A stretch of 19,792 nt of DNA from Oscillospiraceae bacterium (lineage in GTDB: Bacteria > Bacillota_A > Clostridia > Oscillospirales > Oscillospiraceae): the NCBI GenBank assembly GCA_017540945.1, contig JAFYAB010000039.1, forward strand, positions 1-19,792. Direction: 5' to 3'. The notes beneath the pieces are model-generated. The model did no database searches. It was not told where the DNA came from and saw only the letters and a program-made list of their open reading frames with translations. Shown one piece after another: positions 1 to 19,792 of this stretch. Numbering within the stretch: the first letter of the stretch is position 1; each line of letters starts with the position of its first letter. The position numbers and the translations under genes are program-made.

Positions 1-164
1 CGGTAGCTGTAGGACTCTGAAAAGCCCTTCGTGCCAACGGACCAATTCTGCGCCGTCAGACGGTTCGCGCTGTCGTAGAGGTGTTCCGTGCGCTGGACGG
101 TTCCGCTGCCGCCCTCCTCCCGGCTGCGGATCAGGCGGCCCCTGATTGGTTTGGACAAAACAGC
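1..164 (-). pseudogene. RHS/YD-repeat protein fragment, runs off left edge
   Basis: Read on the minus strand, about 1-137 translates to RHS-type sequence: GRLIRSREEGGSGTVQ, then the YD-repeat hallmark EHLYDSANRLTAQNW. YD repeats build the hollow shell of polymorphic toxins that carries a C-terminal toxin. The frame closes at an in-frame TAA (165-167), and no ribosome binding site or convincing start was found. RHS similarity stops where a repeat-like CCCCTGATTGG (about 140-150) begins, so the 5' part appears lost or displaced by a palindromic repeat. The coding sequence continues beyond base 1 towards its C-terminus. I infer a broken RHS gene or silent cassette. It lies downstream, in the same direction, of another RHS C-terminal cassette at 2879-3691. 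Confidence 0.6.
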
Positions 165-181
165 TTATGAGGCGCATCATT

Positions 182-206
182 CAATCAGAGAACCGTCCCC
201 TGATCG
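182..206 (-). repeat. Short palindromic repeat, CAATCAG-arm type
   Basis: Arms CAATCAG (182-188) and CTGATCG (200-206) flank the core AGAACCGTCCC. One arm base departs from perfect pairing. It has the same sequence as the unit at 426-450 apart from that base. Confidence 0.7.
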
Positions 207-299
207 CAGGACTTATATACCGATGTTAATTTTGTCGTCAGATTTATTTACCGAGATTCTCCGGAGGGGGAGATCTTGTATGGGTACTTTATGTGAAAA

Positions 300-343
300 C
301 ACACGGGGACGGTCCCAATGCCATCCCCATTGCGCCCCGTGTG
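300..343. repeat. Palindromic repeat, CACACGGGG-arm type
   Basis: Perfect 9-base inverted repeats CACACGGGG (300-308) and CCCCGTGTG (335-343) enclose a segment that starts with ACGGTCCC. It shares the GGGACGG core of the other units but has different arms and a longer interior. Confidence 0.65.
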
Positions 344-356
344 AGAGAAATCAATT

Positions 357-381
357 CAATCGGGGGACGGTTCTCTGATTG
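357..381 (+). repeat. Short palindromic repeat, CAATC-arm type, inverted
   Basis: CAATC (357-361) and GATTG (377-381) bracket GGGGGACGGTTCTCT. This is the unit at 426-450 in the opposite orientation, with one arm base changed. Confidence 0.7.
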
Positions 382-425
382 ACTGATTGTTCTTAGCTAT
401 TCGGCTTTCTGTATAATATTTTTGT

Positions 426-450
426 CAATCAGAGAACCGTCCCCTGATTG
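426..450 (-). repeat. Short palindromic repeat, perfect CAATCAG/CTGATTG arms
   Basis: This is the clearest unit: 7-base arms CAATCAG (426-432) and CTGATTG (444-450) around an 11-base core AGAACCGTCCC, 25 bases in all. A partial match (CAATCAGGG, about 489-497) overlaps the stop codon of the lipoprotein gene that ends at 493. Confidence 0.75.
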
Positions 451-492
451 CTCCTGGGCAACATGTCGAGCAGTGGTTTTGAACCGCATCAA

Positions 493-1608
493 TCAGGGAT
501 AAGTATAATACACGCTGTTAAAACGCCCGTCGATTGCGAAACAATGTATACTCACAATCGTACCGTGATCGGTACCCAGGTAATATACCGTTCCGTTTTT
601 TGAAATGTACGAAGGCATATAGTTTCCGCTGCCGGGCTGAAAATGATAGGGCCCGTACTGGGCAATGAATTCCTTTTCCGTTTTACCGAGCCATTTTTCC
701 ATCTGCGGGATCGGCTCGATGGGCTCCAGGCCTTCGGCATCCAGCAATTCCAGATCGTCAGAGAACGAGACAATCGCGTAAATATTCTTCCAGTCGTCGC
801 CCGTGCAGGCTATGTGATTCCCTTTTGAATCCTTCCAGGTTACATAAGCGTTAAACTCGTCAGTAATACTGTCACCCAGGGATTCGCTGATTTTACGGAT
901 CGGATCGCCGATATGGACATCATATTCAGGCAGTTCTGTTTCTTCCGATGTTGTGAGTGTGCAGGATGCGTAATGATAGGGTTTTATTGTGAAACAATTC
1001 ATGCGCACAATTGTACCGTGCTCAAGTTCTACCCGGTAAACAGTCCCGTCTTTTGAGATGTAAGAAGGTCCATATATGTTAGTGTTTTGCCGATGATAAT
1101 GATAGGGACCATAGCGCTCCACGAATTCCGCTTCCGTTTTTCCGAGCCATTCTTCCAGTTGCGTGATCGGCTCGATAGGCTCCAGGCCCTCTGCTTCCAG
1201 CAATTCCAGATCATCGGAGAACCGGACGACCGCATAGATCGTGTCCTCATCCTCGCCCGCGCAGGCGACGTGATACCCCGTAGAATCTTTCCAGATAACA
1301 GCATCGCAGTACTCGCGGTCAATCCTGCTGTTCAAAGCTTCTTTGACCGCGCGAAGCGAGTCGCCGATTTGAACGTCATATGCAAGCGGCTCCGTTTCTT
1401 CCGGAATCGTGCCGCTTTGATTCGCTGTGCTTTCGATATCCGTATCTTTTACCGTTTCCGTTTCCTCATGTGTCGTGCTAATACGATCAGCAGTGATCTC
1501 TGCAACCGCCTGTGTATTTGAATTGCTGTCGCTATCTGAAGATCCACAGCCGTACAGAATTATCAAAGCCATAACCAAAGCGATAAACAATACAAGCTTT
1601 TTCATCAT
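493..1608 (-). CDS. Lipoprotein with two tandem copies of a ~130-residue domain; candidate immunity protein
   Basis: A 371-residue predicted lipoprotein. Its MMKKLVLF start is followed by a hydrophobic stretch and a lipobox-like LYGC (Cys21), so it should be anchored on the outer face of the membrane. A Ser/Thr/Glu-rich linker follows to about residue 75. Two copies of one domain then occupy about 76-208 and 228-359, with shared landmarks YDVxIGD, WKDSxG, FSDDLELL, AEGLEPIEPI, WLGKTE, YGPYH, SYISKxGTVY and HGTIV. I do not recognise the domain. The start at 1608 has AGGAGG 7 bases upstream; the ATG at 1605 is equally possible. A longer reading to 1707 would enter a palindromic repeat and lacks a signal peptide at its end. 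The single-domain paralogue lies just upstream, directly behind a toxin-like RHS tail, so an immunity role is inferred. The TGA stop falls inside a repeat fragment. Confidence 0.8.
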   Translation of the reverse strand: MMKKLVLFIALVMALIILYGCGSSDSDSNSNTQAVAEITADRISTTHEETETVKDTDIESTANQSGTIPEETEPLAYDVQIGDSLRAVKEALNSRIDREYCDAVIWKDSTGYHVACAGEDEDTIYAVVRFSDDLELLEAEGLEPIEPITQLEEWLGKTEAEFVERYGPYHYHRQNTNIYGPSYISKDGTVYRVELEHGTIVRMNCFTIKPYHYASCTLTTSEETELPEYDVHIGDPIRKISESLGDSITDEFNAYVTWKDSKGNHIACTGDDWKNIYAIVSFSDDLELLDAEGLEPIEPIPQMEKWLGKTEKEFIAQYGPYHFQPGSGNYMPSYISKNGTVYYLGTDHGTIVSIHCFAIDGRFNSVYYTYP

Positions 1609-1619
1609 GTGCTCTCCTC

Positions 1620-1649
1620 CTAATTTGTCGGGGTCACAAGATAATACCC
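1620..1649 (-). pseudogene. Vestigial 3' end of an RHS-CT toxin gene
   Basis: On the minus strand the bases before this lipoprotein gene read GYYLVTPTN-stop, overlapping its ribosome binding site. The intact toxin-like gene at 2879-3691 ends GYFLVTPTN-stop, also overlapping the next ribosome binding site (AATTAGGAGG). Counted by eye, the 30 bases differ at four positions, two of them silent third-position changes (GTA/GTG, CCA/CCG). Beyond this remnant lies a palindromic repeat (1656-1682). I infer that the second lipoprotein gene once followed its own toxin gene, now lost. Confidence 0.6.
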
Positions 1650-1655
1650 GCCCCA

Positions 1656-1682
1656 AACACACGGGGACGGTCCATTTGTGTT
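1656..1682 (+). repeat. Palindromic repeat, AACACA/TGTGTT arms
   Basis: Perfect arms AACACA (1656-1661) and TGTGTT (1677-1682) flank CGGGGACGGTCCATT. The core GGGACGG is shared with the CAATCAG-arm units, but the arms are unrelated. Confidence 0.65.
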
Positions 1683-1712
1683 GACAAGATAACGGCAGCG
1701 AGGTCAACCGTT

Positions 1713-1765
1713 AATCAGAGGACAATCCAAACCTGATTGCACGAAAGGCCCATCCCCGTGTGTTA
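1713..1765. repeat. Degenerate palindromic repeat pair
   Basis: AATCAG (1713-1718) pairs with CTGATT (1733-1738) around a decayed core. A CCCCGTGTGTT half-unit (about 1754-1764) abuts and overlaps the TAA stop of the upstream lipoprotein gene (1763-1765). Confidence 0.45.
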
Positions 1766-2869
1766 CTTGATTGTGCGAATCGTATCTTTCAAGTCTTCGA
1801 CTGTTTCAAAGCCGTCAAACGAAACCAAATAGCTTCCGTCAGTCCAAACTCCGGACCACCCGTCCTCTTTCTCTATGAGATAAAACGTCCTGCCATGGCT
1901 CGAAAAGGCTCGCGTCGTCGATGCCTGGATTTCCCTTTGCTCTTCGAGTAACAGGTCAGAATCTGAGCACTTCACAATTTTAACGCTAATCCTATGACCC
2001 TGTTGATTCTTTAACTTTACATATATACCTGTTCGTCCCGTCATTAACGTTTTGTTGAGATAGTCTACAGTGTATCCATCCGGGACGCACTGTGGCGCAA
2101 GCTCGGTGGGGAGTCCTAATTCCTGAAGCGCGTCGATCACCTGAGGGAGGAACTCTGAGGGATACATATAGGACAAGTCTTTTATAGAAAAAGATTGTAT
2201 CTTTTTTATTACATCACGATCGGTTTCGTCAAAGCTTAACCAGTAAATTGTTCCTGTTTCCGCAACATAGCATGGGATGTAAAAACCGCTGCCGAATTGA
2301 TAGTGGCAAGGACCGTATTGCGTGATAAATTCGGCTTCTTTTTTCCCAATCCATTTTTCCCGCTCAGCCTCTTCAATCGGTTTGATAAGCTCTATTCCGA
2401 CTGCCTCCATCAATTCCATGTCTTCAGAGAATATTACAACCGCACGAATACTGTTCCGGTCATCACCCGTGAGTGCAATATGATACCCTCTTGCATCCTT
2501 CCAAAAAACACAAACGTATTGCTGCTCAAGAAGAATTCTTTCTCTCACATGACTACTGACAGTATACCACGGCTCTCCAATAACAGCATCATACTCAAAT
2601 AAACCCCCATCTGATTGCGTCGTGTTTGTTTGATCCGACTCATCCACGCTATCCGTGGAAGGAATAGACATGCTTACAGTATCCTGCGACGTGATGATTT
2701 CCTCCGATGAAAGCTCAGTTTCTGCGGAGGGCAAAGACGCACCTGTATTATCTTGAATTGTGTTTGTTTGGCCGGCTGTATTCTCGGGCTTTGCGGAATT
2801 TACGTCCATACAGCCGAACAGAACAATCAAAAAACAAAGAGCAATCACAAATTCTGTATACTTTATCAT
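1763..2869 (-). CDS. Lipoprotein with one repeated domain and a DUF4367-like C-terminus; candidate immunity protein
   Basis: A 368-residue predicted lipoprotein with a hydrophobic N-terminus ending in LFGC (Cys20), then a Ser/Thr/Asp-rich linker to about residue 90. Residues 92-229 form one copy of the domain found twice in the neighbouring lipoprotein (EYDAVIGE, FWKDARGYH, FSEDMELMEA, KWIGKKEAEF, YGPCHY, ETGTIYW). Residues about 240-368 resemble the DUF4367 type found in membrane-associated regulators, with FYLIEKEDGWSGVW then GSYLVSFDGF and a final helix. AGGAGG sits 5 bases before the ATG and overlaps the stop of the toxin-like gene at 2879, leaving only a 9-base gap. That tight coupling is typical of toxin/immunity pairs, and lipidation would suit protection outside the cytoplasm. 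The immunity role is inference. Confidence 0.8.
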   Translation of the reverse strand: MIKYTEFVIALCFLIVLFGCMDVNSAKPENTAGQTNTIQDNTGASLPSAETELSSEEIITSQDTVSMSIPSTDSVDESDQTNTTQSDGGLFEYDAVIGEPWYTVSSHVRERILLEQQYVCVFWKDARGYHIALTGDDRNSIRAVVIFSEDMELMEAVGIELIKPIEEAEREKWIGKKEAEFITQYGPCHYQFGSGFYIPCYVAETGTIYWLSFDETDRDVIKKIQSFSIKDLSYMYPSEFLPQVIDALQELGLPTELAPQCVPDGYTVDYLNKTLMTGRTGIYVKLKNQQGHRISVKIVKCSDSDLLLEEQREIQASTTRAFSSHGRTFYLIEKEDGWSGVWTDGSYLVSFDGFETVEDLKDTIRTIK

Positions 2870-2878
2870 GACAGCCTC

Positions 2879-3691
2879 CTAATTTGTTGGGGTTACAAGA
2901 AAATAACCAAAGAAATGATCGTACACTCCGCGTTTACATTCTTGGGGATCATGAATATAATTATATGAAGCATCAAGTAGACTAACTGAAGCATCACCAA
3001 CTTTATGGAACCAGAGTCCGCTTTCCGTTCGTCTCCACCAATGATAATCACAGAATCCTTTCTCGTTATAACCAAAACCCAAAGCTACAACCCATTGCCC
3101 ATTATTTGTGGGCCAATTTGCTGAACTGACTTCCTCAATTGTAAAGCCTAGGATTTTTCCGTCCGCCTTTGCAGCGCCGATAATATTTTCACGTACTCCT
3201 TGCGTGTTCGCGTAATGATCCTTTTCGAGAGTCGCCCAAAACCCTTCCAGATCTGGCGTGCAGTATTTACCAGAAAAGTCTCCCGGTTGTGGCATCGTTT
3301 GAAATGGTTCACCAGTTCTTGGATCAACCGTAATATTAAATGCGTACGCATAGCAATTCGCTTTCTTCTTGTAGTTCTTGCTTTCGCGTACGGCTTCACA
3401 TATAGCTAATGGTGGGGTATTATCACACACCATAATCGGCTGATGACCACCGTACTCGCCGCTTGGGTCAGCACTTGCAACCGGATTATTATTGCAGTAC
3501 GCAAACATATTATACCCGAGGAAGCCCTGGCCGGTGCTGCCGTAGGAGTCCGCGTTCAGGAAGCGCTTGACGATAGGATCATAGTATCTGGACTGCAGGT
3601 AATAGAAGCCCGTTTCGGAATCGTAGTAGTAGGGGAGGGTTCTCTGTGTTGTCCCTGTGTTCCAGCAGTTATATCCAGTATTATGGGGCGT
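2879..3691 (-). CDS. 5'-truncated RHS core with C-terminal cysteine-peptidase-like toxin domain (RHS-CT)
   Basis: The frame is open from just after a TGA (3692-3694) to TAG at 2879. The only ATG, at 3508 (209 residues), has no ribosome binding site, and RHS coding clearly extends upstream of it: YYYDSETGFYYLQSRYYDP, FLGYNMFAYCNNNPV and the junction motif DPSG. Known RHS proteins carry a variable toxin after this motif. Here that part is about 190 residues. Counting from the ATG, it has NCYAYAFN (Cys52), QPGD (74-77), DYHWWR (His156), HKVGDASV and LLDAS (Asp179), an order that suggests a papain-like Cys/His/Asp site. I recall similar NCYAYA...DYHxYR...HKPG proteins of unknown function but could not verify this. 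Palindromic-repeat sequence is read through at 3632-3662, so this is probably a silent or decayed cassette. The next gene, 9 bases on, encodes its likely immunity lipoprotein. Confidence 0.75.
   Translation of the reverse strand, partial: TPHNTGYNCWNTGTTQRTLPYYYDSETGFYYLQSRYYDPIVKRFLNADSYGSTGQGFLGYNMFAYCNNNPVASADPSGEYGGHQPIMVCDNTPPLAICEAVRESKNYKKKANCYAYAFNITVDPRTGEPFQTMPQPGDFSGKYCTPDLEGFWATLEKDHYANTQGVRENIIGAAKADGKILGFTIEEVSSANWPTNNGQWVVALGFGYNEKGFCDYHWWRRTESGLWFHKVGDASVSLLDASYNYIHDPQECKRGVYDHFFGYFLVTPTN
3632..3662 (+). repeat. Palindromic-repeat sequence inside the RHS reading frame
   Basis: GGGGAGGGTTCTCTGTGTT (3632-3650) followed by GTCCCTGTGTTCC matches the GGGACGGTTCTCTGTGTT theme of the other units. 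It sits exactly where recognisable RHS-core sequence begins on the minus strand, so the repeat marks the breakpoint of the truncated gene. Confidence 0.55.
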
Positions 3692-3806
3692 TCATATCTT
3701 ATAGATACCCCTCTATATATTAAAACAAGTGTGAGGTGTTTTGCAACACTTTTTACCGAAAAAACTGATACAAATTGGGCGTCTTTTTGCCGGGTTTATG
3801 TTATAA

Positions 3807-3827
3807 ACAAAGGGGCCGGTTCTTTGT
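3807..3827 (+). repeat. Palindromic repeat, ACAAAG/CTTTGT arms
   Basis: Perfect arms ACAAAG (3807-3812) and CTTTGT (3822-3827) around GGGCCGGTT. A third arm set on a near-identical core. It lies in the gene-free stretch 3692-3956, which otherwise holds a CCCGGGC/GCCCGG hairpin (3831-3857) and a short GTGTT/AACAC hairpin followed by T5 (3736-3754). Confidence 0.55.
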
Positions 3828-3902: not shown

Positions 3903-3946
3903 CAAAAAAACACGGGGGGCGGTTCCTTGCGCGCAGGAAACGCCCT
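3903..3946 (-). terminator. Hairpin and T-tract downstream of pdaA, built from a repeat unit
   Basis: On the minus strand GGGCGTTTCC pairs with GGAACCGCCC (10 positions, one mismatch) around a 9-base loop. A run of T follows about six bases later (3904-3910 complement). The left part, CACGGGGGGCGGTTCC, is a diverged palindromic repeat, so the repeat may have been adopted as the pdaA terminator. Confidence 0.45.
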
Positions 3947-3956
3947 TCCATTTTTG

Positions 3957-4754
3957 TTACATGCTTCCGCCGGCGAAGAGCTCGTCGAGGCTGGCGAATC
4001 GGTAGCCCATCTCCTCCCAGCGGGTCAGCAGCTCATCCAGGATCTCCGCGTTGGTAGCCGAGGTGGAATGGAGCAGCACCACCGCCCCGTTGTGGACCCG
4101 GGGCAGAAGCTTGTCGAAGGCCTCCTCCCGGCTGGGCTGCCGGTCCTGCTTCCAGTCCACGTAGGCCAGGGACCAGAATACGGTTTTCCAGCCCAGCTCC
4201 TGCGCCATTTTCAGATTGTGTTCCGCGTAAACGCCCCGGGGCGGGCGATAATATCGGGGCATGGGGGCGCCGACCACACGCTCGTAGGCTGCGGCGACGT
4301 CGGAGAGCTCCTTTTCAAAGGTCGCCCGGTCCGCGATTTTGTCCATATCCCAGTGATGCCAGGTATGGTTGCCCACGATGTGCCCCTCGGCGGCCATCCG
4401 CTTTACCAGCTCCGGGTTGTTCTCAATGTAGGAGCCCACAACAAAGAAGGTCGCCGGGGCCCGGTGCTTGGCCAAGGTGTCCAGGATGGCCGCCGTGTGG
4501 CCGTTTTCGTAGCCCGCGTCGAAGCTCAGATAGAGCACCGGCTGGCTCTCGTCCCCCACGAAGGCCGCGTCATAGGCTGCCAGCTCCTCCCGGGAGGCGT
4601 TGCCCACGGGACATTCTCCGGGCCTGGGGAAGCTCAAGCCCCAGGACGCCACCTCCACACTTTGATCCATCCGGGCCAGCCAGCAGCCCGCGGCCACCAC
4701 CGCCAGCAAAAAGAGCCCCACCGCCGCCAGCCGGATCCGATATGCTTTTTCCAT
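3957..4754 (-). CDS. pdaA: PdaA-type polysaccharide deacetylase (spore cortex muramic-delta-lactam pathway)
   Basis: A 265-residue NodB-fold deacetylase. The start is MEKAYRIRL at 4754, with AGGAGG 7 bases upstream; an in-frame extension to 4829 has no such site. Residues 6-23 are a membrane segment ending AAGC (Cys24), so it is either a membrane-anchored enzyme or a lipoprotein. Catalytic motifs are SFDAGYENG (Asp79), the metal-binding NHTWHH (His130, His134), RPPRG (170-174) and VLLH (His229). FDxGYENG, GHIVGNHTWHH and VFWSLAYVDWK match what I know of Bacillus subtilis PdaA, and the length is right. PdaA removes the N-acetyl group from muramic acid on the way to the delta-lactam of spore cortex peptidoglycan, which implies a sporulating lineage. 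It is transcribed alone. I found no convincing sporulation-sigma promoter. A related PdaA/PdaB-type deacetylase cannot be excluded. Confidence 0.88.
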   Translation of the reverse strand: MEKAYRIRLAAVGLFLLAVVAAGCWLARMDQSVEVASWGLSFPRPGECPVGNASREELAAYDAAFVGDESQPVLYLSFDAGYENGHTAAILDTLAKHRAPATFFVVGSYIENNPELVKRMAAEGHIVGNHTWHHWDMDKIADRATFEKELSDVAAAYERVVGAPMPRYYRPPRGVYAEHNLKMAQELGWKTVFWSLAYVDWKQDRQPSREEAFDKLLPRVHNGAVVLLHSTSATNAEILDELLTRWEEMGYRFASLDELFAGGSM

Positions 4755-4889
4755 TGCGTCGCCTCCTGTTCCTGCTGGGAGCTTATGCGGTCCCGGCGGA
4801 AAAAAGACGGGGGGATTTTGATTTTTCAATCAATATTTTTCCCGGTTCCGGGATCTTACAGACAGAAGGACCGGAAGGGAGCGAGCCGT

Positions 4890-11625: not shown

Positions 11626-14600
11626 ATGAACAGACGAATCTCCAAGCTTCCAGCCCTGCTGCTGGCCTTGACCCTGATCCTGAGCCTGCTGCCAACGGCT
11701 CTGGCGGCTCCCGCCCGGAGCGAAAGCGACCCGGCGGAGAGCAACGCCCTCCGCGCCACCGGCCTGCTGCCCATCCTGCCCCATGGCGGCAAGCTGCCCG
11801 GAGAGACGGACAGGAAAGACGACGACACTGTCCGGGGCGCCCTGCCCGCCGCCTATGACAGCCGGGACTACGGCTACATCACGCCCGTCCGGGACCAGGG
11901 CAGCTACAACACCTGCTGGACCTTCTCCACCGCCGCTGCCTGCGAGGCCTATATGATCAAGCACGGCGTGGAGGTAGGAGATACCGGTGTCGCCGCGGAT
12001 CAGAGCCTGAATCTCTCTGAGTACCATCTGGCCTGGTACACCTACACCGCGGCTTACGACGCCGAGGAGATGCTCACCGGCGACAACACGGCCTTTCTCA
12101 GCTCCGCCAACACCAACTTCCTGGACCACGGCGGCACCGGCGAGCTGGTCAGCTATCCCCTCATGCGCTGGACCGGCCTGGCCGCCGAGACGGAGCCCGC
12201 CCTGATGTACAGCTCCGCCAGCTATAACGGCCTGGGCGCCGACTACGCGTACCAGTACAACGTGGCCCACGTCCAGTCCGCCAAGCACTTCTTCGGCGAG
12301 AACATCGACGAGGTCAAGCGCCACATCATGGAGTACGGCGCCGGGGCCATGGGCGTCCGGGTCTCCAACCAGAGCGGCACCGCCTACCACGGCGGCGTCA
12401 ACACCTCCAACGGCACCATCTGCTGGAAGCAGAACGCCGTGGCCTATCAGGACGCCAACTTCTACTATGCCGACCATGACGTGACCGTGGTGGGCTGGGA
12501 CGACAACTATCCCAAGGAGAACTTCAACAACGGCTATCGGCCGAGCCAGAACGGCGCCTGGATCATCAAGAACTCCTGGGGCACCGGAATCGGCGTTGAC
12601 GGCTATTTCTACGTCTCCTATGAGGATTCCGCCACCCGCGCCAGCTACGTCTCCTTCTTCACCGTGGAGGGGGTTGACAACTACGACCACAACTACCAGT
12701 ATGACGGCTCCGCCAACTATTCCTGCTGGGAGGAGCTCAGCACCGGGGACGCCATCGCCCAGGAGTTCGTCGCGGGCGGCAGCGAGACCCTGAACGCCGT
12801 AGCCATCGGCATGTGCGGCGACGACACAGATTACACGCTGAAGATCTACACCGACTGCACCCCGGGCGACCCCACCGCAGGCGTTCTGGCCCACAGCCAG
12901 ACCGGCAACATCGACTACTGGGGCTACCAGACCGTCCCCCTGGACAGCCCCGTCACGCTGAGCCAGGGCCAGCGATTCTCCGTGGTCTTCGAGTTCGAAG
13001 GCAGCGACATCCTGCCCCTCTACGATGCCAGCTATTCGGAAAACCAGTATTACAACATGCAGGTCACCCACCAGCCCCATCCCAACACCGCCTATCTCAA
13101 GCGCGCCGCGGATTCCGCCTGGACCGACATGTCCGGCGACCGCAACTACCGGGTCAAGGCCTACACCCGGGACATTCCCGAGGAACCCGTCCCCATGAGC
13201 CTGTCCTGCTATGCCCTGGGCAGCCTGTATCAGACCATCTCCGGCACCGCCGGCGACAAGATCCATCTGCCCTCCACGGCCCCCGCCGCCGAGGGTTGGA
13301 GCTTCCTGGGCTGGGTCGCCGCGCCATTGGAGGAGACTGTCGAGAAGCCAGTATTTTACAAGCCCGGCGCCTCCTACAAGCTGACGGCCTCCGTCTCCGC
13401 TGTCTACGCGCTGTATCTGCGCGCAGAGCCCATCGACGCCCCCGTTACCTATGAGCTGGTCACCGCCGTACCCAGCACCTGGGAGGGGAAATACGTATTC
13501 ACCTGCATGAACACCACCGGCAGCGCCGAGTACGTCATGTACGGCGTGGCGGGAGACGCCAACATTGAGAACACCAGCTCCGCCGCAGCCTTCGCCTCCT
13601 CCGGCATCACCCGGAACGGAACGACCCTGAGCGATGTGCCGGAGCGCTATGTTTTCGAGATCGCGGCCTCCGGCGGCGGCATGTCCGTCCGCAGTGTGGA
13701 CAAAAACAGCTGGCTCGCCAGCGTACAGACCGGAAGCACCTCCACCTCCTATTATCTGTACGCGCTGAACGAGTACGACGCGGGGAAGTGCTCCTGGACC
13801 TTTGAAAAGGACGACGACGCCTGGTATCTGAAGAACAACAACAGCGGCCTGGTCCCCTATGTCGGCGTCAGCGGCTCCACCTTCGCCATGACCCGCTACG
13901 GCGGCGAATTCAAATACTACAAGCAGAATCCCACCGAGACCTTCTATTATTCCACCGTCGGCGGAGCGCCGGAGCCCACCGAGCCCATCGAGATCGACAC
14001 GATCCAGATCTACGCCTCCCTTTCCATCGGGATTGAGCTCGATGCATCCTTCAGCGTGCGCAGCACGGATCTGAGCAATTACAATTCCTGGTACATCGAG
14101 GTCAGCAAGCTGGACGCGGACGGAAAGGTGACTGCGTCCAAGCGCTTCGGCGAAGGCCAGGAGGGGGCCGTCACCGGCGACGACGTCTACCAGGCCAGAT
14201 ACACAGATATCACCGCCAAGGAGCTGGGCGTTGCCTTCACCGCTTCCGTCCACGCCTTTGACGCCGACGGCCGGGAGTATGTCAGCAAAAATATCGTCAA
14301 CAGCGAGCCGATCTTCACCTTCCGGGATTACATTCTCGGCGAGCTGACGAAGGAGGGCAACTCCGATTCGATACGGACCCTGGCCGCGGACCTGCTGAAC
14401 TACGGCGCGGCGGCGCAGGTGTATTTCGAATACGACGTTGAGCACCTGGTGAACGAGAATCTGAGCATCGAGGCCCAGGCCGCGCTGAAGCATTATGCAA
14501 CCGCGGGCGAGGCCTCCGCGACTCTGGTGAACGGAACGAACGGTCCCAACGTCTACGGCAGCTTGTCGATCAAGAATCGGATCGTGCTGACCCTGACGAT

Positions 14601-14925
14601 CCGGGGCATTGGCTCACCGGAGACGGTGCAGATCAAGATCAAGGAGCATGATGGCGAAAAGGTGAAGGAGATTATCGACACCGAGAAGAAAGACTCCGTC
14701 TGGCAGGTACAGTATTCCGGTCTGGATGCAGAGGACATGCGGACCCTGTACGACTATGTTCCGGTGGCGGACGGCGCAGAGGTCGGCACGCCGCTGAGCT
14801 GGTCCGTGGAGGGCTACGCCCGGGAGGCCCGGCTGAACGAGGATGCCACGTCTGCGGAGCTGGATCTGTTCAACGCCCTGCTCCACTATGTGGACGCGGT
14901 GGACGCGGTGGATTTCGGCAGCTGA
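11626..14925 (+). CDS. Secreted papain-like (C1) cysteine peptidase with lectin-like domain
   Basis: A 1099-residue secreted protein. AAGGAG precedes the ATG. The signal peptide ends near LPTALAA (27). A short linker leads to a C1 peptidase domain (about 73-346) with SRDYGYITPVRDQG (Gln91), TCWTF (Cys97), DHDVTVVGW (His284) and IIKNSWG (Asn316), the full papain catalytic set. Residues about 366-516 match the lectin-like domain that often follows such peptidases (TLNAVAIGM, LKIYTD, VPLDSPVTLSQGQRFSVVFE). About 523-600 looks like an InlB/Flg_new-type repeat (GWSFLGW). Residues 607-770 are a domain I cannot name. Residues about 787-1095 are the C-terminal module shared with the next protein (YGAAAQ, KNRIVLTLTIRGIG). 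No LPXTG or SLH motif is seen. It probably degrades proteins or glycoproteins at the cell surface or outside. The end VDAVDAVDF is a small internal repeat. Confidence 0.88.
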   Translation: MNRRISKLPALLLALTLILSLLPTALAAPARSESDPAESNALRATGLLPILPHGGKLPGETDRKDDDTVRGALPAAYDSRDYGYITPVRDQGSYNTCWTFSTAAACEAYMIKHGVEVGDTGVAADQSLNLSEYHLAWYTYTAAYDAEEMLTGDNTAFLSSANTNFLDHGGTGELVSYPLMRWTGLAAETEPALMYSSASYNGLGADYAYQYNVAHVQSAKHFFGENIDEVKRHIMEYGAGAMGVRVSNQSGTAYHGGVNTSNGTICWKQNAVAYQDANFYYADHDVTVVGWDDNYPKENFNNGYRPSQNGAWIIKNSWGTGIGVDGYFYVSYEDSATRASYVSFFTVEGVDNYDHNYQYDGSANYSCWEELSTGDAIAQEFVAGGSETLNAVAIGMCGDDTDYTLKIYTDCTPGDPTAGVLAHSQTGNIDYWGYQTVPLDSPVTLSQGQRFSVVFEFEGSDILPLYDASYSENQYYNMQVTHQPHPNTAYLKRAADSAWTDMSGDRNYRVKAYTRDIPEEPVPMSLSCYALGSLYQTISGTAGDKIHLPSTAPAAEGWSFLGWVAAPLEETVEKPVFYKPGASYKLTASVSAVYALYLRAEPIDAPVTYELVTAVPSTWEGKYVFTCMNTTGSAEYVMYGVAGDANIENTSSAAAFASSGITRNGTTLSDVPERYVFEIAASGGGMSVRSVDKNSWLASVQTGSTSTSYYLYALNEYDAGKCSWTFEKDDDAWYLKNNNSGLVPYVGVSGSTFAMTRYGGEFKYYKQNPTETFYYSTVGGAPEPTEPIEIDTIQIYASLSIGIELDASFSVRSTDLSNYNSWYIEVSKLDADGKVTASKRFGEGQEGAVTGDDVYQARYTDITAKELGVAFTASVHAFDADGREYVSKNIVNSEPIFTFRDYILGELTKEGNSDSIRTLAADLLNYGAAAQVYFEYDVEHLVNENLSIEAQAALKHYATAGEASATLVNGTNGPNVYGSLSIKNRIVLTLTIRGIGSPETVQIKIKEHDGEKVKEIIDTEKKDSVWQVQYSGLDAEDMRTLYDYVPVADGAEVGTPLSWSVEGYAREARLNEDATSAELDLFNALLHYVDAVDAVDFGS
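14578..14870 (+). repeat. Near-identical DNA segment, copy 1 (see 19485-19778)
   Basis: Bases 14578-14656 are identical to 19485-19563 (79 bases, by eye). The match continues with scattered differences, including another identical run around 14697-14745, to the end of the module. Confidence 0.8.
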
Positions 14926-15347: not shown

Positions 15348-18300
15348 ATGAAAATTCGAAAACTCCTCGCCTGGGCCCTTTGTCTCTGCCTGATCCTGGG
15401 TGTGTTCCCGGCGGTCTCGGCGGAAACGAATCCGAGCTGCACGGCGGTGCTTACCGGCAATACCGGCGCGGTCGTCACCTGCAGCGCTGCGCCCCTCTCC
15501 GCGGAGGTGGACGACAACGACCTTGCCATCGTCGAGATCCGCGGAAATGAGGTCCGCGTCATTGCCAAAGAAGGCGCCGTCGGCGTCGCACGGCTGACGG
15601 TCCAGACCTCTGCCGGTTACGAAATTTTTGACATTCCCATCGGCTATACCACCTTCGTCTACGACGGCGGTAAGTTGACCGTCGTCCCCGGCAGCGACAG
15701 CGGCTACACCGTCACCGGCATCAACGCCGCCGGCGAGGAATATATCGCCGGCAGCACCGACTATCCCCTGCCCGTGACCACCGACGTCAACGGCTGGACC
15801 GTCTATGAGAACACCGACGTCTATAAGCTGCACGTCGCCATCGCCAAGACCGGCGGCACCTTCGTCTTTACGGGTACCGCCTCCGACGCCTCCGTCAGCG
15901 TCAAGAAGGCCGCCACGGCTCCCGCCGTCATCCTCCTGGCGGGGCTGGATATGAGCTCCTCCTTCACCGCGCCCATCACCGTGAAGAAGGAATCCACCTC
16001 CACCGTCACCATCACCGCCCTCGGCGGCTTCACCAACACCCTCACCGACGCCGCCTTCAACAACGCCGACAGCTACGGGGATCCCGCCACCGACGGCGGC
16101 GACGGCACCAACGCCGAGTATGCCGAGTCCGCGGTCATCAAGGGCAAGTCCTATTCCCGGGTTACCCTCAACGGCGCGGGCACGCTGAACCTGGTCTGCA
16201 GCACCAAGAACGCCCTCAAGGTGGGCGAGTACGGCAGCCTGACCATTGACGGGCTGACCCTGAACGTTACCTCCGCCAAGAACGGCATCTCCGCCGACAA
16301 CCTGATGACCATCAACGGCGGCAATATCACCGTCACCGCCACGTCCGGCGACGCCATCCGCTCCGATCCCGACGCCGTGGACGCCACTGCGGGCTGCGCG
16401 GGCAACATCGTCATCAACGGCGGCAGCTTCACCCTCCAGTCCGGCAGCGACGGCATCCAGGCCGCCCAGGACCTGACGATCAACGGCGGCGACTTCAACA
16501 TCCGCGCCGGCAGCGGCTATAACGACAGCTCCTTCAACAAGGACACCATGAGCTGCAAGGGCCTGAAGGCCTCCTTCAGCTCCGACGACTCCGATACCGA
16601 CGACACCGACGCCACCAACGTGCTCACCGTCAACGGCGGCACCTTCACCATCAATACCCCCGACGACGCCATTCACACCGACGGCAGCGTGGTCATCAAC
16701 GGCGGCGAGTTCGCCATCCAGACCGGCGACGACGGCGTCCACGGCGACGTGCAGGCCGATTTCGGCGTCCAGGGCGCGGCGGACTGCAAGATCCATCTGA
16801 CCGTCTCCACCTCCTACGAGGGTCTGGAGGCCAAGAACGTCTACATCAAGTCCGGCTGCTACAGCATCGCGGCCTCCGACGACGGCATCAACGCCGCGGG
16901 CGGCAGCAGCAGCGGCTCCGATCCCTCGCCCTGGAATCCCGGCCCCGGCGGCGGCGGAAACACCGGCGACTACAGCCTGAACATCAGCGGCGGTCTGGTC
17001 AACGTCAACTGCAACGGCGACGGCCTGGACTCCAACGGCGCCCTGAACATCACCGGCGGCAGCTCCATCGTCTGGGCCCAAGCTCCCAACGGCGACAACT
17101 CGCCTCTGGACTCCGACGGCACCATGACCGTCAACGGCGGCATGGTCTTTGGCGGCGGCACCAATCCCATGAATGAGAACCCCAGCACCTCCACCAGCCA
17201 GCCCTACGTCAAGTACGGCGGCTCCTCCGGCGGCGGCTGGGGCGGCCCCGGCGGCGGCAGCAGCGGCTCCACCATCAGCTCCGGCAGAACGGTGGTCGTC
17301 AAAAACGCCTCCAGCCAGGTCGTCTTCAGCATCAAGGCTCCCAAGAACATCAACTACGCCATCTATTCCGATCCCACCATGACCAGCAGCACCAACTGGT
17401 CCATTACCTCGGATACTTCTACCCCGACGACGACAAACTTCTGGTCTGAGCATTCCTACGGCTCCTACGTTCAGACCCAGGCTCCCAGCTGCACGGTCCC
17501 CGGCGTGAAGACCGCGACCTGCTCCGCCTGCGGCGGCACCGTGACCGAGGAGATCGCCCCCACGGGCCACAGCTGGTCCTATGTGACGATCGCCCCCACC
17601 GTCACGGAGGAGGGCTATGATCTCTACACCTGCTCCGTCTGCGGCGGCCAGTATCGTACCAACTTTGTCGAGCCCACCGGCGGCGGGGATCCCTGCGTGG
17701 ACGGCCACACCTGGGACGACGGTGTCGTCACCACCGAGCCCACCTGCACCGAGCCCGGCGTCACCACCTACACCTGTACCGTCTGCGGTGAGACCACCAC
17801 GGCCTCCGCTCCCGCGGCCCTGGGCCATGAGTTCAACGATGAGACCGGCGTCTGCGGCCGCTGCGGCATGGAGGCCTGGAAGGCGAGCTTCGTCTGCAGC
17901 GAGGGCTGCTCCGTCACTGCCTATCGCACCCAGGATCTGAGCTCCGGCGGCGCCGCCAACGCGGCTTATGCCTTCGCGCGCTCCTCGGACAACGGCGCCA
18001 TCGACGTCTCCGGCAGCGGCCAGGTGAACTTCGTCGTGGTCCCGGAGGAGGGCTATGCCATCGAGAGCGTCACCGTGACGCCCACAGCCAATTACAAGAA
18101 CCTGAAACTCCCCTCCGAGATCGGCACGGAGAACGCCTACCGCATCACCAAAGTGGCCGGCGACGTGACCGTCACCGTGACGGCCTCCCAGAACGTCTGC
18201 CAGCATGAGTTTGACGACGACGGCGTCTGCATCCACTGCGGCCTGGAGGCGCCGAAGGCGAGCTTCGTCTGCAGCGAGGGCTGCTCCGTCACGGCCTATC

Positions 18301-19792
18301 CGACCCAGGATCTGACCACCGGCGGCACGGAGCACGCGGCCTTCGCCCTGGCCCGCTACAGCGATACCGGCGAGATCGCCATCGACGGCACCGGCCAGGT
18401 GAACTTCGTCGTGGTCCCCGAGGAGGGCTATGAGATCGTCAGCGTCACCGCCGAGCCCACGGCCAACTACAAGAACCTTAAGCTCCCCTCCGAGATCGGC
18501 ACGGAGAACGCCTACCGCATCACCAAGATGTCCGGCCACGTCACCGTGACCGTAACCGCCCGGTCCACAACGCCTCAGATCGAGGATGGCTATTATCTGA
18601 TCGGGCCCGATGGCTGGACTGTGGATACCATTGATCCCGCCAAGTGCTTTGCGGTCAACCCCGCCAACGCCAACGAGTACATGCTGAGCACCACCCTGAC
18701 CGCGGGCGATCCCATCAAGGTCGTACACGTGGCGAACGGCGCCATCGACGCCTGGTATCCCGACGGAGAGGGTACGGAGTACATCGTGGACGCAGACCAC
18801 GCGGGCGAGAAGACGATCTACTTCAAGACCGGCTACGACCAGGCCTGGGCCGAATTCGGCGGCTACATCTGGATCGACGCCAATCCTGTCAACCCCGATC
18901 CTGTCCTGGACACAAATCTGACGTTCTACATGTCCCTGATTACGAAGATTGAGCTGTACGCCAAGTTCACTGTGCGCATGAGAACCGTGCAGGATTATGA
19001 GAGCTGGTATCTTGAGGTGAGCAAGCTGGACGGGGACGGCAACGTCATCGAAACAAAGCGCCTTGGCGAGGGACAGGAAGGCGAAGTGACCCCCGTCAAC
19101 AACATCGCCTACCTGGCGGAATACCGGGACGTCACAGCAAAGGAGCTGGGCGTCGACGTGAGTGTGGTGCTCCATGCCATAGATGCCAACGGTGTCGAGC
19201 ATTACGGACCAGCAGTGGTGTTCAACTACCGGGATTATATCGTGGGCGAGCTGCTGAAGGAGGACAATGATGATGCGGTGCGCAAGCTTTGCGCGGACAT
19301 TCTGAACTACGGCGCGGCGGCCCAGGCGTATTTCGATTACGAAACTGAGCACCTGGTGAACGAGAATCTGAGCATCGAGGCCCAGGCCGCGATGGAGCAG
19401 TTTGCCAGCACGGGCGTGGCCCCCGCGAATCTGGTGAACGGAACGAATGGCCCGAACGTCTACAGCTCCGTGTCGGTCAAGAACCGGATCGTGCTGACCC
19501 TGACGATCCGGGGCATTGGCTCACCGGAGACGGTGCAGATCAAGATCAAGGAGCATGATGGCGGAAAGGTGAAGGAGATTATCGACACCGAGAAGAATGG
19601 CTCCGTCTGGCAGGTACAGTATTCCGGTCTGGATGCAGAGGACATGCGGATCCTGTACGACTTTGTACCGGTGGCGGACGGCGAAGAGACCGGCACGCCG
19701 CTGACCTGGTCCGTGGAGGGCTACGCCCGGGAGGCCCGGCTGAATCCGGATGCCACGGCTGCGGAGCTGAATCTGTTCAACGCCCTGCTCCA
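15348..19792 (+). CDS. Giant secreted multi-domain surface protein with Cthe_2159-like beta-helix (3' end outside window)
   Basis: Open from ATG 15348 (AAGGAG 7 bases upstream) to the right edge, 1481 codons and still open. The signal peptide ends LGVFPAVSA (25). Residues 26-110 look like a bacterial Ig-like (Big2) domain. About 167-605 is a right-handed beta-helix of the Cthe_2159/DUF4353 type, with INGG-(S/N/D)-(F/I) turns and GDAIRSD, SDGIQA, DDAIHTD and DDGVHGD loops; that family binds pectin or cellulose-like polymers. It is interrupted by Gly/Ser/Pro-rich linkers (about 518-541, 624-642). About 715-840 carries CxxC zinc-ribbon-like repeats (CSACGG, CSVCGG, CTVCGE, CGRCG). Two copies of a 125-residue repeat start at residues 846 and 971 (ASFVCSEGCSVTAY). 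Residues about 1081-1180 resemble a starch-binding (SusF/CBM26-like) module. From about 1189 the C-terminal module shared with the peptidase begins. No enzyme motif seen. It probably binds plant or host polysaccharide at the surface. Confidence 0.85.
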   Translation, partial: MKIRKLLAWALCLCLILGVFPAVSAETNPSCTAVLTGNTGAVVTCSAAPLSAEVDDNDLAIVEIRGNEVRVIAKEGAVGVARLTVQTSAGYEIFDIPIGYTTFVYDGGKLTVVPGSDSGYTVTGINAAGEEYIAGSTDYPLPVTTDVNGWTVYENTDVYKLHVAIAKTGGTFVFTGTASDASVSVKKAATAPAVILLAGLDMSSSFTAPITVKKESTSTVTITALGGFTNTLTDAAFNNADSYGDPATDGGDGTNAEYAESAVIKGKSYSRVTLNGAGTLNLVCSTKNALKVGEYGSLTIDGLTLNVTSAKNGISADNLMTINGGNITVTATSGDAIRSDPDAVDATAGCAGNIVINGGSFTLQSGSDGIQAAQDLTINGGDFNIRAGSGYNDSSFNKDTMSCKGLKASFSSDDSDTDDTDATNVLTVNGGTFTINTPDDAIHTDGSVVINGGEFAIQTGDDGVHGDVQADFGVQGAADCKIHLTVSTSYEGLEAKNVYIKSGCYSIAASDDGINAAGGSSSGSDPSPWNPGPGGGGNTGDYSLNISGGLVNVNCNGDGLDSNGALNITGGSSIVWAQAPNGDNSPLDSDGTMTVNGGMVFGGGTNPMNENPSTSTSQPYVKYGGSSGGGWGGPGGGSSGSTISSGRTVVVKNASSQVVFSIKAPKNINYAIYSDPTMTSSTNWSITSDTSTPTTTNFWSEHSYGSYVQTQAPSCTVPGVKTATCSACGGTVTEEIAPTGHSWSYVTIAPTVTEEGYDLYTCSVCGGQYRTNFVEPTGGGDPCVDGHTWDDGVVTTEPTCTEPGVTTYTCTVCGETTTASAPAALGHEFNDETGVCGRCGMEAWKASFVCSEGCSVTAYRTQDLSSGGAANAAYAFARSSDNGAIDVSGSGQVNFVVVPEEGYAIESVTVTPTANYKNLKLPSEIGTENAYRITKVAGDVTVTVTASQNVCQHEFDDDGVCIHCGLEAPKASFVCSEGCSVTAYPTQDLTTGGTEHAAFALARYSDTGEIAIDGTGQVNFVVVPEEGYEIVSVTAEPTANYKNLKLPSEIGTENAYRITKMSGHVTVTVTARSTTPQIEDGYYLIGPDGWTVDTIDPAKCFAVNPANANEYMLSTTLTAGDPIKVVHVANGAIDAWYPDGEGTEYIVDADHAGEKTIYFKTGYDQAWAEFGGYIWIDANPVNPDPVLDTNLTFYMSLITKIELYAKFTVRMRTVQDYESWYLEVSKLDGDGNVIETKRLGEGQEGEVTPVNNIAYLAEYRDVTAKELGVDVSVVLHAIDANGVEHYGPAVVFNYRDYIVGELLKEDNDDAVRKLCADILNYGAAAQAYFDYETEHLVNENLSIEAQAAMEQFASTGVAPANLVNGTNGPNVYSSVSVKNRIVLTLTIRGIGSPETVQIKIKEHDGGKVKEIIDTEKNGSVWQVQYSGLDAEDMRILYDFVPVADGEETGTPLTWSVEGYAREARLNPDATAAELNLFNALL
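17883..18561 (+). repeat. Tandem 375-base coding repeat
   Basis: Copies begin at 17883 and 18258, each with ASFVCSEGCSVTAY, TQDL, GQVNFVVVPEEGY, TANYKNLKLPSEIGTENAYR and VTVTVTA. Each copy is preceded by a HEF(N/D)D...GVCxxCG zinc-ribbon-like unit. DNA similarity is high, so the duplication is recent. Confidence 0.8.
19485..19778 (+). repeat. Near-identical DNA segment, copy 2
   Basis: Second copy of the C-terminal module DNA, inside the giant secreted protein, in the same orientation and about 4.9 kb from copy 1. Homology at protein level extends leftwards to about 18912. Confidence 0.8.

Follow-up and report, generated by a model that had tools for sequence, protein, structure and literature searches.

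The left end of a 19,792-nucleotide stretch of Oscillospiraceae DNA (contig JAFYAB010000039.1; the whole stretch is called the window below) holds pieces of RHS genes interleaved with two genes for lipoproteins, which raises the question of what lipoproteins do in such company. In the usual picture, the immunity proteins of RHS toxins are cytoplasmic. An earlier note on this DNA had read the region as a decayed tandem array of RHS C-terminal toxin domains (CTs) and immunity genes, with exported lipoproteins as the immunity proteins. Our answer keeps much of this: these are, we consider fairly probable, orphan RHS-CT/immunity cassettes that combine a papain-like CT with lipoprotein immunity outside the cytoplasm.

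Two displaced cassettes on one strand

All five elements of the proposed array are present on the minus strand and in the order described: RHS core with CT (3640-2879), lipoprotein 1, the remnant of a CT end, lipoprotein 2 and an RHS fragment (140-3). In the direction of transcription, the features are:

3509-3640, minus strand: residual RHS core ahead of the first start codon, with its own upstream part broken away; matches TIGR03696, and an in-frame stop lies upstream of it.
2879-3508, minus strand: CT open reading frame (ORF), 209 amino acids; end of the RHS core, linker and probable papain-like domain, with NCYAYA at residues 51-56 and DYH at 154-156.
1763-2869, minus strand: lipoprotein 1, 368 amino acids; LFGC signal, one domain as in lipoprotein 2, and DUF4367; candidate immunity protein of the intact CT.
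1616-1649, minus strand: what remains of the 3' end of a second CT gene, including its ribosome site, located 5' to lipoprotein 2.
493-1608, minus strand: lipoprotein 2, 371 amino acids; lipoprotein-type signal LYGC and two copies of a domain of about 140 amino acids; candidate immunity protein.
3-140, minus strand: RHS mid-gene fragment (YD-repeat region), running leftward past base 1, its upstream part missing.

The RHS-associated core sits directly before the CT: NCBIfam profile TIGR03696 (Rhs_assc_core) matches residues 5-61 of the frame 3640-2882 with an E-value of 2.4e-15. As this frame has a stop upstream at 3694-3692, the listed ORF being 3508-2879, the RHS gene is truncated. Directly downstream of the CT stands a small gene, lipoprotein 1; its ATG lies 9 bases past the CT stop (2879/2869) and its AGGAGG overlaps the stop codon TAG, which confirms the tight junction reported in the earlier note. 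The element at 140-3, taken there for another RHS gene, is a mid-gene fragment. It shares 54% identity over 54 aligned columns with an RHS protein from another genome (L004; tblastn between the loci, E 9.5e-13), and the Pfam family RHS_repeat alone matches it weakly (E 0.19). What stands of the array is a set of displaced modules of RHS-CT/immunity type, the second CT having been lost before lipoprotein 2.

The end of this lost CT is still legible. Positions 1649-1616 are identical to the intact CT end (2908-2875) at 30 of 34 nucleotides and encode GYYLVTPTN-stop against GYFLVTPTN-stop; in a random control, two of 20,000 34-mers from the window reached at least 26 identities, in a draw that could include both copies themselves. 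Read from just past the palindromic repeat before it, the remnant encodes GGYYLVTPTN-stop, which agrees with the CT relative P0026 in 10/10 residues, with P0044 in 9/10 and with the window's intact CT in 8/10. This closer agreement hints that the lost CT belonged to the P0026/P0044 subtype. P0044 and P0010, a relative of lipoprotein 2, have the same longest contig size (4115 for both), a coincidence that is suggestive only.

We propose that the cassettes form the reserve of an RHS polymorphic toxin locus: through the piece of RHS core retained before the CT, a full RHS gene could acquire the cassette by recombination.

A probable papain-like enzyme

At an E-value of 0.1, none of 13 members of the CT family matched a Pfam family, and PADLOC assigned nothing to the three proteins searched. 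Profiles were trimmed to the domains, A3 for the CT and A4 for the lipoprotein domain; they replaced profiles A1 and A2, which included signal peptide and RHS core and matched mainly those parts. The CT relatives have the motifs NCYAYA, DYH, W, HK and D in common. A Cys and a His are invariant in all 13 rows of A3. In the wider set of 25 CT rows the His is present throughout, and NCYA is absent only from P0043 and P0044, both of which start past the motif. From this conservation we infer that the two residues are catalytic.

An AlphaFold model of the CT (mean pLDDT 86, pTM 0.81) has the Cys opening a helix (52-56) and the His on a strand (153-160). Among the matches listed by Foldseek and VIA-align, Josephin-type enzymes, staphopains, the endoisopeptidase PeiR and C39 domains come highest, with an interbacterial papain-like toxin (PDB 9l5u) lower in the ranking; all Z-scores are below 6 and the best Foldseek E-value is 4.5e-3. 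Judged by the model, the CT is probably a papain-like cysteine hydrolase, and as such probably a peptidase or an amidase.

The RHS core precedes this domain in 19 of 25 sequences from the protein search, the window's own included, as scored with one pattern. Related genomes gave 16 RHS hits in which the core bears another tail, never one with NCYAYA: the CT is exchanged behind a conserved RHS core. The relatives come from Roseburia and other Lachnospiraceae, Lachnoanaerobaculum, Acutalibacter, Bacteroides and records named Hungatella and Eubacterium. Among genomes of the family, 2 of 250 hold a relative; for the order the count is 13 of 345, and for the class 4 of 391. One phage record and a Rhizobium plasmid also hold relatives; viral contigs searched for the CT and the lipoprotein gave no match.

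In the phage record (PV036447.1, L084:2018-5061, host written as Anaeroplasmataceae), the protein has, judged by eye, a signal peptide and a trypsin-like region, and it has the NCYAYA domain; a lipoprotein-type ORF follows with a 1-base overlap. The protein on plasmid p3 of Rhizobium ruizarguesonis (L083:2353-3183, 276 amino acids) has NCYNYA and DYHWYR and, by eye, no signal peptide; no ORF starts between -45 and +60 of its stop.

Lipoproteins with a possible inhibitor fold

Both lipoproteins have export-type signals with a lipobox Cys, in line with the earlier note's claim that they are exported lipoproteins. LFGC and LYGC lie behind a hydrophobic stretch, where L-x-G-C is found in 22 of 25 lipoprotein rows, mostly as LSGC or LTGC. 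Set against the strict lipobox consensus, LFGC and LYGC deviate at position -2, and the claim needs this correction. The export/anchor pattern that we used on CT neighbours (see below) did not score lipoprotein 1.

The two domain copies of lipoprotein 2 are 71% identical over 300 nucleotides; a third, partial copy lies in lipoprotein 1 (142 nucleotides, 70% identical to the reference copy), together with DUF4367 (PF14285, E 1.4e-5, 26 bits against a cut-off of 22.1). No Pfam immunity family matched the window lipoproteins. In the structural search with a model of lipoprotein 2 (pLDDT 81), beta-lactamase-inhibitor-protein (BLIP) folds take four of the first six rows, all with Z-scores below 8. 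On this model, the domain that the earlier note did not recognise is tentatively placed as BLIP-like. A pattern for BLIP-like motifs was dropped, since neither window lipoprotein fitted it and 17% of shuffled proteins did; we therefore do not claim a BLIP-like fold for partners in other genomes.

A search relying on shared 5-residue words found no homologue of lipoprotein 1 beyond itself, plasmids searched for it gave no match, and the lipoprotein domain is present in 0 of 34 genomes of the genus. One relative of lipoprotein 2, P0014, is a chimera: its N-terminal half is different, and it is 96% identical over 42% of the query, a sign of recent recombination.

In the mechanism we propose, the CT would be a papain-like cysteine hydrolase whose site of action is the cell wall zone or the membrane's outer face. 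The two lipoproteins would be immunity proteins, exported by Sec and probably lipid-anchored on that outer face, each binding the enzyme through tandem BLIP-like domains. The incoming toxin would be blocked at its site of action, and toxin and immunity protein would thus encounter each other outside the cytoplasm.

Partners of the CT in other genomes

From 29 CT loci we removed L082 and L110 (no stop in the locus), the duplicates L064 and L076 and, counted apart, the window, leaving 24 distinct loci. An ORF with an N-terminal export/anchor segment, starting between -45 and +60 of the CT stop, is found in 15 of them, against 35 of 166 generic genes under the same rule (p 7e-5). The call is made by a hydrophobicity rule rather than a signal-peptide program, nor are the loci independent of one another, since L062 resembles L063 and a single genome supplies L113-L115. 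For partners outside the window, the only signs of BLIP-likeness are a weak BamE match in L075 (E 9.8e-4, below cut-off) and the match of the L070 partner to A4; a profile comparison of A4 with the partners in L061-L063 gave no support for likeness.

Several observations weigh against our reading, and they are best considered with the explanations they would favour. RHS genes with other CTs have an exported neighbour in 8 of 15 cases under the same rule (Fisher p 0.74 against 15/24; control from loci L001-L030, after removal of duplicates and under a 300-base room rule). The exported partner is thus real, standing above the generic rate, but a general habit of RHS genes in these bacteria and not peculiar to this toxin. 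By the same count, RHS immunity outside the cytoplasm may be a general feature of this bacterial family. As to the lipoprotein domain itself, it is found in 2 of 250 family genomes, both times in what by eye is a lipoprotein, and neither a CT nor an RHS core occurs in the 8 kb inspected; one of the two is flanked by genes that look, by eye, like those for the lipoprotein and the ATPase of an uptake system. The earlier note had named homologues lying mostly away from RHS genes as a sign against its proposal, and both matching genomes, two weak cases, are of this kind.

These observations suit an explanation in which the lipoproteins are of an ordinary surface type with a common fold and lie by chance next to RHS debris, and the CT has another immunity protein or none: two genomes have the domain away from RHS, and exported neighbours are frequent behind RHS genes generally. 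It has to accommodate two paralogues, each directly behind a CT end and with the same ribosome site, and the longest contig size that P0010 and P0044 share. We regard it as quite improbable.

Also on the opposing side, the CT domain occurs in secreted proteins other than RHS. In seven loci (L061, L067, L072, L077, L078, L079 and L084) it follows a signal peptide by eye, with no RHS part seen, and L072 includes a ricin lectin. A second explanation builds on these carriers: a secreted cysteine peptidase with a dedicated anchored inhibitor, like staphopain and staphostatin, would serve nutrition or surface processing, with RHS proteins as one carrier of several. The ricin lectin and the trypsin-like region of L084 agree with it, an export/anchor ORF adjoins six of the seven genes (all but L067), and staphopain is among the top structural rows for the CT. 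Behind the CT domain of L072:1195-2574 and L073:1177-3450, extra C-terminal stretches resemble an inhibitor-type partner by eye and could be inhibitor domains fused in cis. The RHS core before 19 of 25 domains argues the other way, and orphan cassettes with a lost second CT fit toxin loci better. We hold this explanation unlikely, if the most serious of the alternatives.

A lipobox-like segment in RHS-borne relatives

Returning to the cassettes as toxin and immunity modules, a further feature bears on where the enzyme may act. In 12 of 19 RHS-borne CTs (P0030, P0035, P0036, P0038-P0040, P0042 and P0045-P0049), the linker has a hydrophobic stretch whose end, 15-19 residues in, is LSGC, LTGC or LSAC. 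The 19 sequences include the window's CT and near relatives (P0046/P0047, P0045/P0048), several of the 12 carriers are closely related, and P0045-P0049 are weak matches (E 1e-6 to 5e-4). Such a segment is found in none of 16 RHS core hits with other tails, scored with a comparable, not identical, pattern and including one hit with only 12 residues past the core. The window's own CT has no internal lipobox segment.

RHS toxins are cleaved free near the core end, and the hydrophobic segment would thereby become a new N-terminus. One could imagine that the segment, exposed by release from the RHS shell, tethers the papain-like enzyme to the membrane's outer face, perhaps making it a lipoprotein. 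Toxin and immunity protein would then share a surface, and the window's CT would have lost the segment or never had it. We rate this idea as doubtful.

The same segment might instead serve entry, which leads to a last alternative: the CT acts in the target cytoplasm, and the lipoprotein stops entry at the membrane with no direct inhibition of the enzyme. The available part of one report describes an interbacterial cysteine protease toxin that targets the cytoplasmic GyrB and ParE (PMC12136450), a membrane-type segment precedes the enzyme in those 12 of 19 sequences, and the partner in L070, which matches A4, has no signal. Against this, the export signals of the partners and their possible inhibitor fold are in keeping with direct inhibition outside the cell, and we think entry blocking very improbable indeed.

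Palindromic repeats and neighbouring genes

The broken ends of the gene fragments lie within about 40 bases of palindromic repeats of GGGGACGGT type. These are found at 3632-3646, at 1653-1766 (directly before the CT remnant) and at 176-452, and also at 3812-3826 and 3915-3929. The copies within the locus are:

3632-3646, no strand assigned: GGGGAGGGTTCTCTG repeat copy, 93% identity, at the upstream break of the RHS-core fragment.
1653-1766, no strand assigned: hairpin repeat, its ends of ACACACGGGGACGGTCC type, separating lipoprotein 1 from the CT remnant.
176-452, no strand assigned: three TCAATCAGAGAACCGTCCCCTGATTG-type copies (181-207, 356-382 and 424-450) from the repeat search, between lipoprotein 2 and the RHS fragment.

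Positions 355-452 form a long hairpin (DNA fold z -11.6), and 1653-1766 folds with z -5.3; in each case none of 200 shuffles was as good. With up to two mismatches, GGGGACGGTTCT occurs nine times in the window against 2.2 expected, eight of them inside the first 4 kb. The 18-base form of the CAGAGAACCGTCCCCTGA repeat is present in 0 of 6 related genomes at up to one mismatch; the 15-base form is found as 25 stretches in viral contigs. Their position at or near the broken ends suggests that the repeats took part in rearrangement, and they may have caused the breaks.

Next to the cassettes, at 3957-4829 on the minus strand, is a gene for a PdaA-type polysaccharide deacetylase of the sporulation type (TIGR02884, E 7.7e-83, 277.6 bits, under the cut-off of 298). 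A DNA search with positions 1-3800 gave no match in the nearest genome, G001. Six regions of relatives, 10.5-11.5 kb long and with the ABC transporter genes kept, gave no tblastn match (E 1e-5) to the deacetylase, the lipoproteins or the CT. Farther along the plus strand, 11626-14925 encodes a protein of 1099 amino acids with papain C1 (PF00112) and Lectin_like (PF18560) domains, a second cysteine peptidase of exported type in the window. Finally, 15348-19790 encodes at least 1481 amino acids with the carbohydrate-binding domain Cthe_2159 (PF14262, E 7.7e-55, two stretches) and leaves the window.

Comparison with known systems

The locus presents a CT family with no Pfam match, paired with exported, possibly BLIP-like proteins. 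If the proposal is right, the site of action of many RHS toxins in these bacteria would be extracytoplasmic, and lipoproteins at present labelled hypothetical would be immunity proteins; an internal lipobox would be a new way of holding a toxin on the target surface. Among the matches listed in open-licence literature, there was no BLIP-like lipoprotein immunity for RHS.

On the toxin side, the nearest known domains are Tox-PL and Tox-NLPC/P60 (PMC3482391) and the toxin of PDB 9l5u, which share a papain-like fold (probable here), Cys and His, and the place at the C-terminus of a polymorphic toxin. The window's CT differs in having no Pfam match, and its NCYAYA and DYHW motifs were not found described in the accessible text of that survey (PMC3482391). 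The lipidated polymorphic toxin SitA of myxobacteria resembles what the LSGC-type segment of the 12 relatives might imply; as far as the available text describes it, SitA has an ordinary N-terminal lipobox, moves by outer membrane exchange and has SUKH-type immunity for SitA1, whereas the window's CT is without the segment (PMC5562445).

As to immunity, the 2012 survey of polymorphic toxins describes Imm65 as the sole lipoprotein family of its collection (PMC3482391). Imm65 with Tox-JAB-1, and the immunity proteins to L,D-peptidases, offer the same combination of RHS-type toxins with lipoprotein (Imm65) or secreted and transmembrane immunity, but Imm65 is listed there for Bacteroidetes and another toxin domain (PMC3482391). 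Bacterial teneurin-like proteins have an RHS-like toxin and adjacent immunity genes, with no lipoprotein immunity in the part of the paper available (PMC13018210).

Two systems resemble the proposed arrangement, as described in the accessible parts of the two papers. TelC of Streptococcus intermedius acts in the inner wall zone, and TipC places its immunity domain at the outer face, with several tipC paralogues; TelC is a lipid II phosphatase, and the TipC anchor is a transmembrane one (PMC6193138). TslA of Staphylococcus aureus is not an RHS protein but a phospholipase that leaves the cell by type VII secretion, and TilA is a DUF576 lipoprotein, a family for which no match was seen in the window (PMC10730906). 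What TslA and TilA share with our proposal is an extracellular toxin, an extracellular immunity lipoprotein, and tandem paralogous lipoprotein genes that recombine (PMC10730906).

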